Shown piece by piece: positions 12,445 to 53,337 of a stretch of 64,000 nt of DNA; the first letter of the stretch is position 1; every line of letters starts with the position of its first letter. The notes under the pieces were generated by a model. The model was given only the letters and a program-made list of their open reading frames with translations, was not told the DNA's origin and ran no database searches. The DNA comes from an uncultured Pseudokineococcus sp. (GTDB taxonomy: Bacteria; Actinomycetota; Actinomycetes; Actinomycetales; Quadrisphaeraceae): positions 1 through 64,000 of the forward strand of contig NZ_CANMAA010000008.1 in NCBI RefSeq assembly GCF_947495735.1, in the 5' to 3' direction. A program made the translations under genes and the position numbers.

Positions 12445-12452
12445 CGCACTCA

Positions 12453-12490
12453 CCCGCCCGGTCCCGCGCCCAGGTGCGGGACCGGGCGGG
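12453..12490. terminator. Bidirectional hairpin terminator
   Basis: Perfect 15-bp arms (CCCGCCCGGTCCCGC at 12453-12467, complement at 12476-12490) with an 8-base loop, between the convergent GH43 and SpoIIE-type genes. Confidence 0.75.
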
Positions 12491-12496
12491 CGCCGG

Positions 12497-14302
12497 TCAG
12501 CGGTGGCCCGGGCCGGCCTCGGGCGGGCGGGGCCGGCCCTGCGGGTGGGCGCGCACGGCGAGCAGCGCGACGTCGTCGCCCCCGTGGCCGCCGACCATGT
12601 CGGCCAGCAGCGCGTCGGTCAGCGCCTGCAGCGGCAGGTGGCCGTGGCGCTCCACCGCCCGCCGCAGGTCCTCCATCCCCGTGCGCACGGGGCGGTCGCG
12701 GCGCTCGACGAGGCCGTCGGTGTACAGGAGCAGGGTCGAGCCCTCGTGCAGGAGCGCCTCGTGGTCGCGGCGGGCGGTGCCGGCGCGCACGCCCAGCATC
12801 AGGTCGCTGGCGCCCTCGAGCAGGCGGGCGGAGCCGTCGGGCTCGAGCAGGACCGGCGGCGGGTGGCCCGCGCTGGACCACCGCAGCCGCCGCAGCCCCG
12901 CCGCGGCGTCCTCGGAGGACTGCTCGACGCGCGCGAGGACGCAGGTCGCGAGGCAGGTGACGTGCAGCCCCGGCATGGCCTCGTCGACGCGCTCGAGGAC
13001 GTGGCTCGGCGGCTGGCTGTGGGCCCACGCCATGCTCCGCAGCAGCGAGCGCAGCTGCCCCATGGACGCCGCCGCGCGCATGTCGTGCCCCACGACGTCG
13101 CCGATGACGAGGTTCGTGGCCCCGTCGGGCATGACGACGGCGTCGTACCAGTCGCCGCCGACCTCCGCGCCGTCGGCCGCGGGCACGTAGCGGGCGACGA
13201 GGTGGAGCCGCTCGGGCTGCGGCAGCTCGGTGAGCATCGCCTCCTGCAGCACCCGAGCCGTCGAGCGCTGCTCCGCGAGCAGCTGCGCCCGGGCGACGGC
13301 CTGGGCCGTGTAGCTCGTCATGGCCGCCACGACGTCGCGCGTCGCGTCGTCGAGCCCGCCGGCCTCGGACCAGGTGAGCACCAGCGCACCCAGCACCCGG
13401 TCCCCGACCTCCAGCGGCAGCACGAGGACGGCGCCCGTCGCGGCCGCCGCGCACATCTCGGTGGTCGGGTAGCTCGCGAAGAGGGCCTCGCGGTCGTCCG
13501 CCACGACGGCGGCGCGGCGCCTGACGGCCCAGGCGACGGCGTCCTGGAGGTCCAGGCGACGCTCGGTCGTCGCGGTCTCCCCCGGGACGTCGGGGCAGAC
13601 GGCGACGATCCGGCTCCGTCCGGCGTCGAGCAGGTGCAGGTCCGCGGTGGTCGTGCCGAGCCCGGCGCGCGCGAGCGGGGCGACGGCGCGGACGACGTCA
13701 CCGGGCGAGGAGGTGCGCGCCAGGCCCTCGGAGAGGCCGAGCAGGAGGCGCGAGTGCAGGTCGGCCGCGTCGGCCCGGCGCCGCCCGACCTCGGAGACCT
13801 CCAGCGCGCTCCCGGAGCGGTCGCGCAGCTGGCGCAGCGCCAGCTCCGAGGAGCACGAGTCCGCCAGGTCGGCGAGCACCTGGAGGTCGCGCTCGTCCCA
13901 GGACCGCGGTCGGTCGTCGATGGCGCACAGGGAGCCCACGACGGTCCCGTCCGCGTCCCGCAGCGGGTAGCCGGCGTACGCGACGACGCCGAGGTCGTCC
14001 ACGGCGAGCGAGCCGGCGAGCTCGGCCACCTCCCGGACGTCGCGCACGGCGAGCGGCGCCCGCGTCCGCACCACGTGCTGGCACACCGAGTGCGTCAGCG
14101 GGGTCGAGCGCCGCTCCTGCCAGGGCTCCGGCAGGCCGAGCGCCCCGGGGAGCACCTGACCTGCGCGCGAGACGAGGGAGACCAGTGCGGTCGGCACGCC
14201 GAGCTGCGCGCGCACGAGCCGGGCGTAGCGGTCGAAGGCCGCGTCGGCGGTCGCCGGCAGGGGGGTGCTCTCGGGCAGGCCCGCTCCTGCCCGGTCGCTC
14301 AC
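12497..14302 (-). CDS. GAF-GAF-SpoIIE (PPM) serine phosphatase
   Basis: A 601-residue signalling protein. Residues about 20-165 form a GAF domain (VPTALVSLVSRAGQVLPGALG, SVCQHVV, YAGYPLRDADGTVVGSLCAID). Residues about 185-345 form a second GAF, and about 375-590 a PP2C SpoIIE domain. The metal-binding residues are in GGDWYDAV, GDVVGHD, TDGLVER and GGDDVALLAV. Such proteins dephosphorylate anti-anti-sigma factors of the STAS type, so this one likely tunes a stress sigma factor whose partners are not in this window. The GTG start is chosen because it precedes the first GAF helix. Confidence 0.92.
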   Translation of the reverse strand: MSDRAGAGLPESTPLPATADAAFDRYARLVRAQLGVPTALVSLVSRAGQVLPGALGLPEPWQERRSTPLTHSVCQHVVRTRAPLAVRDVREVAELAGSLAVDDLGVVAYAGYPLRDADGTVVGSLCAIDDRPRSWDERDLQVLADLADSCSSELALRQLRDRSGSALEVSEVGRRRADAADLHSRLLLGLSEGLARTSSPGDVVRAVAPLARAGLGTTTADLHLLDAGRSRIVAVCPDVPGETATTERRLDLQDAVAWAVRRRAAVVADDREALFASYPTTEMCAAAATGAVLVLPLEVGDRVLGALVLTWSEAGGLDDATRDVVAAMTSYTAQAVARAQLLAEQRSTARVLQEAMLTELPQPERLHLVARYVPAADGAEVGGDWYDAVVMPDGATNLVIGDVVGHDMRAAASMGQLRSLLRSMAWAHSQPPSHVLERVDEAMPGLHVTCLATCVLARVEQSSEDAAAGLRRLRWSSAGHPPPVLLEPDGSARLLEGASDLMLGVRAGTARRDHEALLHEGSTLLLYTDGLVERRDRPVRTGMEDLRRAVERHGHLPLQALTDALLADMVGGHGGDDVALLAVRAHPQGRPRPPEAGPGHR

Positions 14303-14417
14303 CCGAGGATCATGCCCTGCCCGCCTCCGGGCGCCGTCACCCGTCCGGCCGCACCCGCACCGGTGACCGGTGCAGGCTGTGGTGGATCGTGCCGCGGGCC
14401 GCGCCGAGGGCTACCCC

Positions 14418-15377
14418 ATGGACGTGGAGACCCCGGTGCCGCGCACCACCGATCCGGCGGCCGCCCCCCGCTCGGGGCCCGGGGGGACGGGTCTGGAGGG
14501 GGCCGTGGTCACGAGCACCCCCGCGCTCGTGTGCGTCATCGGCGCCGACGGGCGGATCCTGCTGTGGAACCCGGCGCTCGAGCGGTCCACGGGGTGGTGC
14601 GCCGAGGAGGTCGTGGGCCGCAGCTTCTTCGACGTGCTCGTCGTGCCGCACGAGCTCGAGCTGGCGCGGGAGTTCGTCGACGACGCCGTCCGCACCGGCA
14701 CGGCCGACCCCCAGGAGGGCGGCTGGCTGGACCGCTGGGGCGGCGTCCGCCAGGTCTCGATGGTCAACAGCGTCCTGCGGGGCGAGGACGGCCGGGCCCT
14801 GGGCATCGCCTGCGTCGGGGTCGACGTGACCGAGCGGCGCCGCGAGGAGGCGCGCCTGCGCGAGGCGGCGGCGAGCGACCCCCTCACGGGCCTGCGCAAC
14901 CGGACGGCGCTCATGGCGGCGCTGTCCGTCGCGCTGGCCGCGCCGGTGCCCGGTTCGACGGGCGCGCCGGCACCCGGCGGGACGGGCGTGCTGTTCTGCG
15001 ACCTCGACCGCTTCAAGGCGGCCAACGACACGCACGGCCACGACGTCGGCGACCACCTGCTGCGCCAGGTCGCCGAGCGGCTGCTCGCCCTGGTCGGCCC
15101 CGACGACGTCGTCGGCCGGCTCGGCGGGGACGAGTTCGTCGTCGTGCTCCCGGGGGCGGACGCCGCGCGCCTCTCCACGACGAGGTGCGCCGTCGACGAC
15201 GCGCTGGGGCTGCCCTACGTGACCCCGCACGGGTCCGTGCTGCTCGGCGCGAGCGTCGGCGCCGCCCTGGGGCACCCCGGCGCGGACGGCGAGCGCCTGC
15301 TGGCCGCCGCGGACCGGCACATGTACGGCATCAAGAGCCAGCGGCGGCGGGCGCGCCGGGTGCCCGAGCCGCGCTGA
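14418..15377 (+). CDS. PAS-GGDEF diguanylate cyclase
   Basis: A 319-residue cytosolic protein. A PAS domain spans residues about 25-140 (TSTPALVCVIGADGRILLWN, VVGRSFFDVLV, GIACVGVDVTERR). The GGDEF domain spans residues about 150-305, with DPLTGLRNRTALM, CDLDRFKAANDTHGHDVGD and RLGGDEFVVVLPG. The GGDEF motif is intact (about residue 236), so it should make c-di-GMP. No RxxD inhibitory site is seen before it. ATG 14418 is used; an in-frame GTG at 14370 would add an unconserved tail. It is transcribed away from the SpoIIE-type gene and followed by a GC-rich tandem repeat. Confidence 0.9.
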   Translation: MDVETPVPRTTDPAAAPRSGPGGTGLEGAVVTSTPALVCVIGADGRILLWNPALERSTGWCAEEVVGRSFFDVLVVPHELELAREFVDDAVRTGTADPQEGGWLDRWGGVRQVSMVNSVLRGEDGRALGIACVGVDVTERRREEARLREAAASDPLTGLRNRTALMAALSVALAAPVPGSTGAPAPGGTGVLFCDLDRFKAANDTHGHDVGDHLLRQVAERLLALVGPDDVVGRLGGDEFVVVLPGADAARLSTTRCAVDDALGLPYVTPHGSVLLGASVGAALGHPGADGERLLAAADRHMYGIKSQRRRARRVPEPR

Positions 15378-15384
15378 GGACCCC

Positions 15385-15506
15385 CCGCGCCGAGCACCCC
15401 GCCGCGCCGAGCACCCCGCCGCGCCGAGCACCCCGCCGCGCCGAGCACCCCGGCCGCGCCGAGCACCCCGGCCGCGCCGCTACCACCCCGCCGCGCCGAG
15501 CACCCC
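15385..15506. repeat. 17-18 bp tandem repeat (minisatellite)
   Basis: About seven copies of a unit reading GCCGCGCCGAGCACCCC, some with one extra G and one copy degenerate (GCTACCACCCC near 15480). It lies between the PAS-GGDEF gene and the GNAT gene. Each unit could pair weakly with its neighbour, but no coding role is seen. Confidence 0.9.
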
Positions 15507-15539
15507 GGCCGCGCCGGGGGAGCGCGGCATGCTGGCGGG

Positions 15540-16070
15540 GTGGACAGCGACCTGCCGGCGGAGCTCGGGACGCGCCGCGGCCCGGGGCGCGTGCGCCGCG
15601 CCGTGAGCGACGACGTCCCCGCGCTGGTGGCCCTGCTGGCCGACGACGTGCTCGGGGCGACCAGGGAGTCCGGCGACCCGGCCCCTCACGACCTGGCCCC
15701 GTACGAGCGGGCGTTCGCAGCGGTCGACGCCGACCCGGCGCACCTGCTCGTCGTCGCCGAGGTCGACGGCGAGGTGGCGGGCACGCTGCAGCTGACCGTC
15801 CTGCCGGGCCTGTCGCGCCGGGGGGCTCTGCGGGCGCAGGTCGAGGGCGTGCGGGTCGCCGCGGCGCACCGCTCGTCCGGGCTGGGCAGCGCGCTGGTCA
15901 CCTGGGCCGCCGACGAGGCCCGCCGCCGCGGCTGCGCCCTCCTGCAGCTGACGACCGACGCGCGGCGCGTGGACGCCCACCGCTTCTACGAGCGGCTCGG
16001 CTTCGAGCGCTCGCACGTCGGCTTCGAGCTCCCGCTCGACCGGGGTGAGCCGGGCCGGCCCCGGGGGTGA
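15540..16070 (+). CDS. GNAT family N-acetyltransferase
   Basis: A 176-residue GNAT enzyme. RVRRAVSDDVPALVALLADD is the N-terminal strand-helix. LLVVAEVDGEVAGTLQLTVL, VEGVRVAAAHRSSGLGSALV (acetyl-CoA pyrophosphate loop RSSGLG) and FYERLGFERSHVGFEL complete the fold. It transfers acetyl from acetyl-CoA to an unknown amine. The GTG start places 18 residues before the fold. The gene is convergent with arsR across a small hairpin. Confidence 0.88.
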   Translation: MDSDLPAELGTRRGPGRVRRAVSDDVPALVALLADDVLGATRESGDPAPHDLAPYERAFAAVDADPAHLLVVAEVDGEVAGTLQLTVLPGLSRRGALRAQVEGVRVAAAHRSSGLGSALVTWAADEARRRGCALLQLTTDARRVDAHRFYERLGFERSHVGFELPLDRGEPGRPRG

Positions 16071-16103
16071 GGGCTCGCGGTCAGGGCCGAGGCGGCCGCA
16101 GGT

Positions 16104-16122
16104 CGGGGTCCTGCGGACCCCG
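16104..16122. terminator. Short hairpin between GNAT gene and arsR
   Basis: CGGGGTCC and GGACCCCG pair over 8 bp with a 3-base loop, directly after the arsR stop (minus strand) and past the GNAT stop (plus strand). Confidence 0.55.
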
Positions 16123-16124
16123 GA

Positions 16125-16502
16125 TCAGCGCCGCGGGCCCGACCCGCCGCTGCTGCGCAGGGCGTCGGCGACGGCGTCGAGGGCGCCCGGCACGAGGGCG
16201 TAGAACGCCCAGGAGCCGCGGCGCTCGCGCGTGAGCAGCCCGGCGTCGACGAGCGTCTTGAGGTGGTGGCTGACCGTCGGCTGGCTCAGCCCCACCGGCT
16301 CGGTGAGGTCGCAGACGCACGCCTCCGCCTCGTCGGTCGAGGCGATGAGGGAGAGCAGCCGCAGCCGGGCGGGGTCCGCGAGGGCCTTGAGGGTCCGCGC
16401 GAGCTCCCCCGCCGCCGCGGCGGGCAGGGGTGCGGCGGTGACGGGCGTGCGGCAGCAGCCCGCGACGTCGCGGGCCGGCGCGGGGGCCGTCGTCGTGCTC
16501 AT
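16125..16502 (-). CDS. arsR: ArsR-type arsenic-sensing repressor
   Basis: A 125-residue SmtB/ArsR repressor. ALADPARLRLLSLIASTDEA leads to the metal-binding CVCDL at the start of the alpha-3 helix. The winged helix is VGLSQPTVSHHLKTLVDAGLLTRERRGSWAFYAL. A further Cys pair (GCC near residue 16) at the N-terminus may complete the As(III) site, as in the Corynebacterium-type ArsR. It is divergent from acr3-arsC, and twin ATCGAC-N4-GTCGAT sites lie between, so arsenite release of repression is expected. Confidence 0.93.
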   Translation of the reverse strand: MSTTTAPAPARDVAGCCRTPVTAAPLPAAAAGELARTLKALADPARLRLLSLIASTDEAEACVCDLTEPVGLSQPTVSHHLKTLVDAGLLTRERRGSWAFYALVPGALDAVADALRSSGGSGPRR

Positions 16503-28089: not shown

Positions 28090-28121
28090 GCGGCCATCGT
28101 CACGCAGACCCCGCCACCTGG

Positions 28122-28161
28122 TCGACGGAGGTGACCGCGCACGGTCACCTCCGTCGCACAG
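28122..28161. repeat. Palindromic repeat, copy 1 (left of nuclease gene)
   Basis: A 34-bp palindrome (28123-28156, arms CGACGGAGGTGACCG and CGGTCACCTCCGTCG, with one central mismatch) in a 40-base block that recurs at 29159-29198 with one difference. It lies between the divergent GH13 and nuclease genes. Confidence 0.95.
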
Positions 28162-28217
28162 CTCCGCCGTCCACAGGCCTCCGGCGCGACGCCGCGGCGT
28201 GCGGGACGCTGGCGCGG

Positions 28218-29171
28218 GTGCGCAGGCGCGAGGTCCCCGAGGAGGTGGCCCGGCTCGCCCGCGCGCAGGCCGGCTGCGTCGCGCGGGCCCAGCTGCGCGC
28301 GCACGGCCTGGGGCCCGACGTCGTGCGCCGGCGGGTCGGGGCGGGGCTGTGGCGGGCGCTCGGCCCGCACGTCGTGGTCCTGCACGCCGGCCCGCTCGAC
28401 GTCGGCGCCCGCCGCGCCGCCGCGGTGCTGCACGCCGGCCCGAGCGCGGCGCTCGGGGCGTGGACGGCGCTCGCGGTCCACGGCCTCGGCGGCTGGGAGA
28501 GGGCGGACGCGCACCTCGTGCTGCCGCCCGGGCGCAGCCGGGGACCGCTCGAGGGGGCGGTGCACCACGTGTCCCGGCGCTGCCGGGCCGAGGACGTCGT
28601 CGTGCGCGACGGGCTGCGCGTCCACCGCGTCGAGCGCGCCGCCGTCGACGCCGCGGCGTGGTCGCCCTCGGGCCGCGCGGCGGGCGGCCTCCTCGCGGCC
28701 GTCGTGCAGCAGCGCCTGAGCACGCCGGCGCGGCTGCGGACGGCGCTGGACGCCGCCGGTGGCCTGCGCGGCGTCGCGGAGCTGCGGGCGGTGCTCGACG
28801 ACCTGGACGGGGGGTCGCAGGCGATGTCGGAGGTCGACCTGGTGCGGCTGTGCCGCCGGAACGGCCTGCCCGTGCCGGTGCGCCAGGGCGTGCGCCACGA
28901 CGCCGCGGGACGCCGCCGCTACCTCGACGCCGAGTGGGAGCTGGCGGACGGGCGCCGCGTCCTCCTCGAGGTCGACGGCGTCGGGCACCTCGACCCCGCG
29001 CGCTGGTACGACGACCTGCTGCGCGCCGCCGAGGTGAGCCGACCCGGCGAGGTGGTGCTGCGGCTCCCGGCCCGGGCGCTGCGCACCGACGGGGCGCGCG
29101 TGGTGGCGCTGCTCCGGGCCCACCTCGCACCGGACCCGTCCTGCCCGAGCGGACCTGCTCGACGGAGGTGA
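28218..29171 (+). CDS. VSR-like (DUF559-type) nuclease with N-terminal winged helix
   Basis: A 317-residue protein. Residues 1-60 (EVPEEVARLARAQAGCVARA, then QLRAHGLGPDVVRRRVGAGLWR) form an AbiEi-type winged helix. Residues about 205-305 form a VSR/DUF559-like nuclease fold: SEVDLVRLCRRNGLPVPVRQ, then RRRYLDAEWELADGRRVLLE, then VDGVGHLDPARWYDDLLRAA. The E-D-E-V residues in YLDAEW and LLEVDG are the likely metal site. GTG 28218 begins VRRREVPEEV; the frame is open back into palindrome copy 1. The TGA stop lies inside palindrome copy 2. Function is unknown; such genes are common in actinobacteria and are thought to be nucleases or antitoxin-like proteins. Confidence 0.8.
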   Translation: MRRREVPEEVARLARAQAGCVARAQLRAHGLGPDVVRRRVGAGLWRALGPHVVVLHAGPLDVGARRAAAVLHAGPSAALGAWTALAVHGLGGWERADAHLVLPPGRSRGPLEGAVHHVSRRCRAEDVVVRDGLRVHRVERAAVDAAAWSPSGRAAGGLLAAVVQQRLSTPARLRTALDAAGGLRGVAELRAVLDDLDGGSQAMSEVDLVRLCRRNGLPVPVRQGVRHDAAGRRRYLDAEWELADGRRVLLEVDGVGHLDPARWYDDLLRAAEVSRPGEVVLRLPARALRTDGARVVALLRAHLAPDPSCPSGPARRR

Positions 29172-29198
29172 CCGTGCACGGTCACCTCCGTCGCACAG
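29159..29198. repeat. Palindromic repeat, copy 2 (over nuclease stop codon)
   Basis: A perfect 34-bp palindrome at 29160-29193 with centre TGCA. The nuclease stop TGA is bases 29169-29171, inside the left arm. Thirty-nine of 40 bases match copy 1. As RNA it would fold into a strong hairpin and could act as a terminator. Confidence 0.95.
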
Positions 29199-29262
29199 GT
29201 CGGGCGCACAGGGTCGGCGCACGGGTCGGCGCACGGGTCGGGCGCACGGGTCGGGCGCGCGG
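29192..29262. repeat. 12-13 bp tandem repeat
   Basis: About five units of the type CGCACGGGTCGGG (variants GCACAGGTCGGG and GCACAGGGTCGG) run from the end of palindrome copy 2 to just before the photolyase-like gene. Confidence 0.85.
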
Positions 29263-49873: not shown

Positions 49874-49881
49874 GGCCCCGC

Positions 49882-49950
49882 CTCAGGGGCCGGCGTCTCA
49901 GGGGGCCGGCGTCTCAGGGGGCCGGCGTCTCAGGGGGCCGGCGACTCAGC
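49882..49950. repeat. 17-bp tandem repeat carrying modC stop-codon sequence
   Basis: Four to five units of the type CTCAGGGGGCCGGCGT run from 49882 to the modC end. On the minus strand each unit reads CGCCGGCCCCCTGAG, close to the last codons and stop of modC (CGGCCCGCTGAG). It looks like slippage copies of the 3' end of that gene. Confidence 0.85.
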
Positions 49951-53293: not shown

Positions 53294-53337
53294 CGAGGAC
53301 CGGTCGGCAGCGCTCGCGCGCCGCGGACCGGTCCTCG
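53294..53337 (-). terminator. Hairpin after the DoxX gene
   Basis: CGAGGACCGGTC (53294-53305) and its complement (53326-53337) are perfect 12-bp arms around a GC-rich 20-base loop, just past the DoxX stop (minus strand). Confidence 0.65.

Follow-up and report, generated by a model that had tools for sequence, protein, structure and literature searches.

To our knowledge, wherever REP-like repeats have an enzyme dedicated to them, it is a Y1 HUH transposase. A further class, the CGTC-tagged REPs, comes mainly from alphaproteobacteria. On the nuclease side, we know of no tested function for the DUF559-type family. Excerpts of two papers describe the REPtron as an enzyme gene in the chromosome that has its own palindromes on both sides and further, mostly intergenic copies of them dispersed elsewhere (PMC3733652; PMC8266576), and an excerpt of the first describes CGTC-tagged REPs as a class said to lack a dedicated transposase (PMC3733652). 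In the AbiE type IV toxin–antitoxin system, as excerpted, the AbiEi protein of Streptococcus agalactiae binds two 23-bp inverted repeats that lie 3 bp apart, Rv2827c binds similar repeats, and neither of the two proteins bound the repeats of the other (PMC7319586).

Here we describe a little-studied nuclease gene that, in many actinobacteria, lies between two 40–60-letter palindromes of its own and looks like part of a second, independently evolved palindromic-repeat system. The starting point was a single locus in the window, by which we mean the whole 64-kb stretch of DNA that was analysed, from an uncultured Pseudokineococcus genome (G000). The arrangement resembles a REPtron in its palindrome-flanked chromosomal enzyme gene and dispersed copies, and it resembles the CGTC-tagged REPs, as excerpted, in having palindromic repeats without a RAYT (PMC3733652). 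The CGTC tag is a feature of those repeats, however, and a relation between them and the palindromes described here has no support in our data. Among the matches listed, a search of the open-licence PMC literature contained no report of DUF559 or AbiEi nucleases joined to palindromic repeats.

A nuclease gene bracketed by two copies of one palindrome

The locus lies between genes for an alpha-amylase and an FAD_binding_7 protein and contains the following features.

28115–28164, no strand: upstream palindrome, type A, with its centre some 80 bp ahead of the nuclease start (hairpin z −6.4)
28218–29171, plus strand: nuclease gene, 317 aa, AbiEi fold plus DUF559/endonuclease-like domain (coding model, homologs, profile, structure model)
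28218–28808, plus strand: part encoding the AbiEi antitoxin fold, residues 1–197 (structure matches to 6y8q and 1zel, PADLOC AbiEi model)
28815–29138, plus strand: part encoding the PD-(D/E)XK-like nuclease domain, residues 200–307 (3hrl match, DUF559 in homologs, kept residues)
29152–29201, no strand: downstream palindrome, type A, whose left arm encodes the last codons and the TGA (hairpin z −7.3)

Direct comparison within the window bore out the earlier note, made from the sequence alone, in its two central observations: near-identical blocks stand on either side of the nuclease gene (28122–28161 and 29159–29198, with 39 of 40 bases equal), and the nuclease stop codon (TGA, 29169–29171) falls in the left arm of the second copy. 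The palindrome that the note had put at 34 bp is a palindrome but a longer one, of about 50 bp, with the 40-base blocks as its core. The second copy pairs at 23 of 25 positions and the first less perfectly; relative to shuffles, the hairpin folds have z values of −7.3 (29150–29203) and −6.4 (28113–28166), respectively. No RNA family matched between 28000 and 29400 at E up to 1.

The 32-base core occurs at only two places in the 64-kb window at up to 3 mismatches, and at none in 100 shuffles. The note's statement that there is no other copy is thus correct for the window but not for the genome, where seven places were found at up to 3 mismatches and ten with a covariance model. Palindromes with 17 or more pairs and no more than 3 mismatches are rare in the window: there are four, two of them being the bracket pair; the other two (12451–12492 and 53294–53337) are unrelated to it in sequence.

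The reading frame is open from 28131, that is, back into the first palindrome copy, as had been noted, but the gene itself most likely starts past that copy. The codon model places the start at 28218 and the match to the nuclease profile sets in at 28227, which most likely puts the first copy 5′ of the gene and not within it.

The protein joins an AbiEi fold to an endonuclease-like domain

The window protein is an AbiEi antitoxin fold (residues 1–197) fused to a DUF559/endonuclease-like domain. In comparisons of its predicted structure (mean pLDDT 84), residues 1–197 matched 6y8q (Z 11.5, rmsd 4.2, 185 aligned) and Rv2827c (1zel; Z 8.0, rmsd 5.0, 198 aligned), and the PADLOC AbiEi model matched all 16 aligned homologs. 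Residues 200–307 matched the endonuclease-like protein 3hrl both by profile (E 4e-4) and by structure (Z 4.8, rmsd 4.5, 81 aligned). DUF559 (PF04480) matched 5 of 16 homologs with E values of at most 0.1, the lowest being 5e-7, although it is not in the window protein's own table, and NCBIfam gave no match for the window protein. The C-terminal domain thus resembles the DUF559, REase_MTES_1575 and NGO0050 endonuclease-like proteins through weak but consistent matches; here, in contrast to proteins of that type, it is fused to AbiEi and tied to palindromes.

Four acidic residues of this domain are well kept among the 75 homologs that carry the bracket described below: E205 and D237 in all 75, E251 in 64 and D253 in 62. 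These may be PD-(D/E)XK-type catalytic residues. The earlier label "VSR-like" proves loose, since the AbiEi-like part makes up over half of the protein and what remains weakly matches DUF559-type models. No Vsr model or structure appears among the matches listed for the domain and structure searches, a result that excludes nothing.

The likeness to AbiE extends to the scale of the repeats, the two 23-bp repeats with their 3-bp gap being about the size of the palindrome (PMC7319586, as excerpted). The system differs from AbiE in three respects: no AbiEii toxin gene adjoins the nuclease at the window locus, where the neighbours are the amylase and FAD_binding_7 genes; the protein has an extra C-terminal nuclease domain; and the palindrome is found at the gene end and elsewhere as well.

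The bracket recurs across the nuclease family

The nuclease family is widespread: of 297 genomes sampled across the order, 189 contain a match (E up to 1e-20). We compared the flanks of 94 homologs and found that most of these nuclease genes are flanked by a repeat of their own: 75 of 94 are bracketed (8 of 11 in the genus and 67 of 83 outside it), against 2 of 301 control genes. The test takes the best local alignment between upstream and downstream flank in either orientation, at a score of at least 20, and does not require a palindrome; by this measure 19 of the 94 are unbracketed. A smaller first control gave 0 of 41 genes at the same score. Homologs outside the genus were picked by search score rather than by palindromes and are only part of all profile matches, and some homologs come from sister species and are not independent. 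Matches covering fewer than 200 profile positions, identical copies and one locus with a short flank (L209) were dropped from the homolog counts, and genes or ends within 300–400 bp of a nuclease were dropped from the controls.

One of the two control genes that pass, in L262, seemingly belongs to another palindromic family: this long Oerskovia gene (12929–16402) is bracketed by a different inverted-repeat family with a CATGCGGTT core and has the top control score, 43.

The shared flank blocks exceed shuffled blocks in self-complementarity (median 0.35 against 0.13). Ten of the 11 genus homologs have a strong palindrome at one or both gene ends, as do 29 of 84 homologs outside the genus, 11 of them on both sides. 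Strict palindromes lie near the upstream end of 19 of these 84 homologs versus 7 of 218 control ends, and near the downstream end of 21 of 84 versus 3 of 134, the control ends being taken from the same loci as the homologs. The centre of the downstream copy is close to the stop codon: its median position relative to the stop is +36, and it is at most 25 bases away in 25 of 75 loci.

The palindromes themselves are lineage-specific, as exemplified by those of Oerskovia turbata (L170), Isoptericola luteus (L162), Actinotalea soli (L160) and Gordonia species (L166, L167, L169 and L173). An outer motif, TGTCAG/CTGACA, is common to L029, L160, L162, L163 and L170 despite different inner arms, and is possibly a conserved part of recognition.

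Palindromes follow their nucleases

Across the 75 bracketed loci, the more alike two nucleases are, the more alike their palindromes tend to be (Mantel r 0.46; 0 of 2000 permutations). Median palindrome similarity is 0.85 above 80% nuclease identity (10 pairs), 0.45 at 70–80% (15 pairs) and 0.14–0.17 below 55%. Shared descent alone would give such a trend too, and a stronger point is therefore that paralogs within G000 (L025 and L054) have different palindromes whereas orthologs of two species agree (L042 with L054, and L026 with L027).

Copy numbers within a genus provide a second view of this pairing. Seven Oerskovia genomes were searched for half-sites with a pattern that came from the first genome, which favours that genome but not the second. 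The two genomes with 100% and 90% identical nucleases have 83 and 102 half-sites; three genomes with no nuclease or a 30% fragment have 21, 20 and 6; and two with a 58% homolog have 2 and 3. Outside the genus, and leaving aside G221 and G261 (which are G315 and G313 again), the count is 0 in the 17 genomes besides G299. The sister genus g2, probably Kineococcus, speaks against such a pairing: G009 and G012 lack a close nuclease yet contain 23 and 36 half-sites, and G007, G011 and G010, which have one, contain 35, 25 and 15.

The Pseudokineococcus genomes G001 (Pseudokineococcus marinus JCM 14547) and G003 (uncultured) contain two palindrome subtypes, A and B, with a common centre (L080–L119). 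The bracketed nuclease that belongs to type B is present in G001 and G003, and the mean pairwise identities of the type B copies there are 0.91 and 0.90. Type A copies, for which no intact bracketed partner was seen in these two genomes, have mean identities of 0.83 and 0.80, with the caveat that copies were assigned to type A by how well they fitted a consensus, so that diverged ones are included. In G000, where the partner nuclease is present, type A copies have an identity of 0.86, between the type A and type B values of the other two genomes. At one orthologous gene (L021/L106), the upstream copy is A-like in G000 and B in G003, as if the types had been exchanged in place.

Dispersed copies lie mostly between genes and close to stop codons

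Cognate palindromes are dispersed in all three groups examined. The covariance model was built from the ten G000 copies, which match it by construction; eight of these ten places are solo and intergenic. Among the genus sisters, it gave 45 strand matches in G001 and 54 in G003. G002 has one weak match (E 0.003), and the closest nuclease there, a homolog at 63%, has a different palindrome. Matches outside the genus are weak (best 2.7e-5, in G004).

The 49 solo copies of G000, G001 and G003 comprise 20 in tandem gaps, 18 in convergent gaps, 8 in divergent gaps, 1 in a gene and 2 at the edge of a stretch. The earlier note had named, as the finding that would speak against it, a palindrome beside many unrelated genes without a link to the nuclease. 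Solo copies do adjoin unrelated genes, but the nuclease link is strong.

Two further observations concern the repeats themselves. A different 60-bp near-perfect palindrome (L094 1082–1141; L114 1057–1116) is identical in G001 and G003 and lies 4 bp from the stop of the next gene. In Oerskovia, palindromes are often doublets with a 63-bp spacing, at nuclease and solo sites alike (L259 14556–14660; L260 5950–6055; L264 2844–2948 and 3995–4099; L268 3035–3140), so the spreading unit may be a pair.

These placements bear on the possibility that the protein is simply a regulator with a regulon. Its AbiEi-like half would bind the palindromes as operators, the upstream copy would serve autoregulation, solo copies would be operators or protein-bound terminators, and the nuclease half would have some other role, with nothing mobile. 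AbiEi and Rv2827c are described, in the excerpted source, as binding inverted repeats in their own promoters (PMC7319586), and the regulon would also account for stable sites: the solo sites within 100 kb compared between two Oerskovia species are all common to both (8 of 8), and at L102/L080 the intergenic DNA immediately preceding the palindrome is less well conserved than the palindrome itself. Autoregulation, on the other hand, needs no second copy over the stop codon. Furthermore, of the 46 solo copies that could be classified, 38 are in tandem gaps or in convergent ones (18 in the latter), which are poor places for operators, and half-site counts range from 2 to 102 within one genus. We thus consider a regulon unlikely.

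The cassette has changed place without a clean insertion

The earlier note had suggested a small mobile unit, an idea that the data support only in part. In its favour, the ortholog of the nuclease (71%) stands at different loci in sister genomes and has thus changed place. The G000 cassette lies between the amylase and FAD_binding_7 genes, where G001 and G003 have a gene for a 385-aa epimerase-like protein; in G002 an epimerase-like gene also precedes the FAD_binding_7 gene, and the amylase is about 12 kb off. The G003 ortholog lies between OYE-like and MFS-like genes, where G000 has a DsbA-like gene (the OYE, MFS, DsbA and epimerase labels were read from the sequences, without a family search). 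In the comparison of G000 with G003 and G001, no nuclease was found at either cassette site in the other species. The change of place thus came with an exchange of neighbours rather than as a clean insertion.

Comparisons of individual palindrome sites weigh against the mobile unit. The solo sites are old: with all eight Oerskovia sites shared, no insertion edge and no recent insertion is visible there. The two species differ at the left end of the Oerskovia nuclease, where a lone palindrome in one corresponds to a doublet in the other. Among the Pseudokineococcus genomes, a site present in G003 and missing in G001 (L109/L091) has ragged edges, as does the presence/absence comparison of L100/L084, and window positions 49874–49945 and L020 are too diverged from the sisters for an empty/filled reading. 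No clean empty/filled pair was found among the sites compared, which were rearranged or ragged, and no target duplication was seen at them.

These results are relevant to the idea that palindrome, nuclease and palindrome move as one IS-like transposon and that solo palindromes are relics or short non-autonomous derivatives. In its favour, the palindromes are terminal and the ortholog stands at different loci, with each site lacking it in the other species. However, G000 has no near-identical second copy of the whole cassette (the nearest paralogs share 60–61% of their amino acids), and a plasmid search of 72,556 records was negative at E up to 1e-10; among phages, one unannotated record matches with 36% identity. 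The epimerase-like and DsbA-like genes in the other species also make the neighbours differ in a way that is no simple split of one locus. A transposon of this type is accordingly quite improbable.

No match to the known REP enzyme in 12 genomes

Known REP elements are thought to be spread by a transposase (excerpts of PMC3733652 and PMC8266576), and a RAYT or IS200/IS605-type enzyme could likewise have spread these palindromes with the nuclease as a bystander. The Y1 HUH (RAYT-type) transposase family PF01797 has no match in any of 12 genomes, whereas 5 of 14 control genomes match; the known REP enzyme is thus unavailable in the 12 genomes, and RAYT was rejected as the palindrome enzyme. Given also that the bracket follows the nuclease family, we regard a separate transposase as very unlikely.

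Similar considerations set the locus apart from REPtrons. The enzyme here is AbiEi plus a DUF559-like domain, the palindromes are 40–60 bp long, and the GTAG tag occurs in 1 of the 10 G000 copies, the set examined for it, at an edge. Without the defining Y1 enzyme and, in G000, the GTAG tag, we do not class the nuclease system as a REPtron.

The least credible account is that the palindromes are plain terminator hairpins next to genes and have no particular connection with the nuclease. Although 30 of 38 solo copies with an adjoining gene end lie −2 to 40 bp from the stop codon, none of the ten G000 copies has a T-run (the 10 bases on each side contain no more than 2 T), a shared sequence of about 50 bp recurs at unrelated loci of G000, and the bracket separates nuclease homologs from control genes.

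A palindrome-directed nuclease as the preferred reading

We favour, with a probability of somewhat under 60%, a REP/RAYT-like module with a different and unrelated enzyme, in which a palindrome-bracketed AbiEi–nuclease recognises, cuts and spreads its palindrome. As anatomy, the earlier proposal of a REP-like target or nuclease/hairpin module has good support, given the bracket in 75 of 94 homologs and the dispersed cognate copies in three groups.

Recognition of the palindrome by the AbiEi half is likely by analogy, since AbiEi binds paired 23-bp inverted repeats whose 49-bp layout approximates that of the bracket palindrome (PMC7319586, as excerpted). An AbiEi-type fold would recognise the 40–60-bp palindrome with one arm per AbiEi unit, and the upstream copy would probably also autoregulate the nuclease gene. 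The nuclease half, we infer, cuts at the palindrome and so drives the copying that spreads it. It may nick or cut the palindrome as a duplex or as a cruciform, and repair of the break would occasionally, over long times, copy the palindrome into new intergenic sites. Solo copies would persist while the cognate nuclease is present and decay after its loss.

Several observations fit this preferred reading poorly: the half-sites without a close nuclease in genus g2, the eight of eight shared Oerskovia sites, the ragged sites in sister genomes, the type A identity in G000 and the 19 of 94 unbracketed homologs.

A broader version of the same reading is that AbiEi–DUF559 proteins are sequence-specific nucleases directed to palindromes, each maintaining its own palindrome and spreading it in the chromosomes of actinobacteria. 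They would form a second, independently evolved bacterial palindromic-repeat system that converged with RAYT/REPIN when a toxin–antitoxin repressor fold became a nuclease that propagates repeats. We advance this only tentatively, at slightly less than even odds. On this account, a widespread family without a known function would gain a testable one, and its members would provide dozens of natural nuclease/target pairs with different sequences. The system would also be an independent example of the ways in which chromosomes come to retain selfish palindromes.
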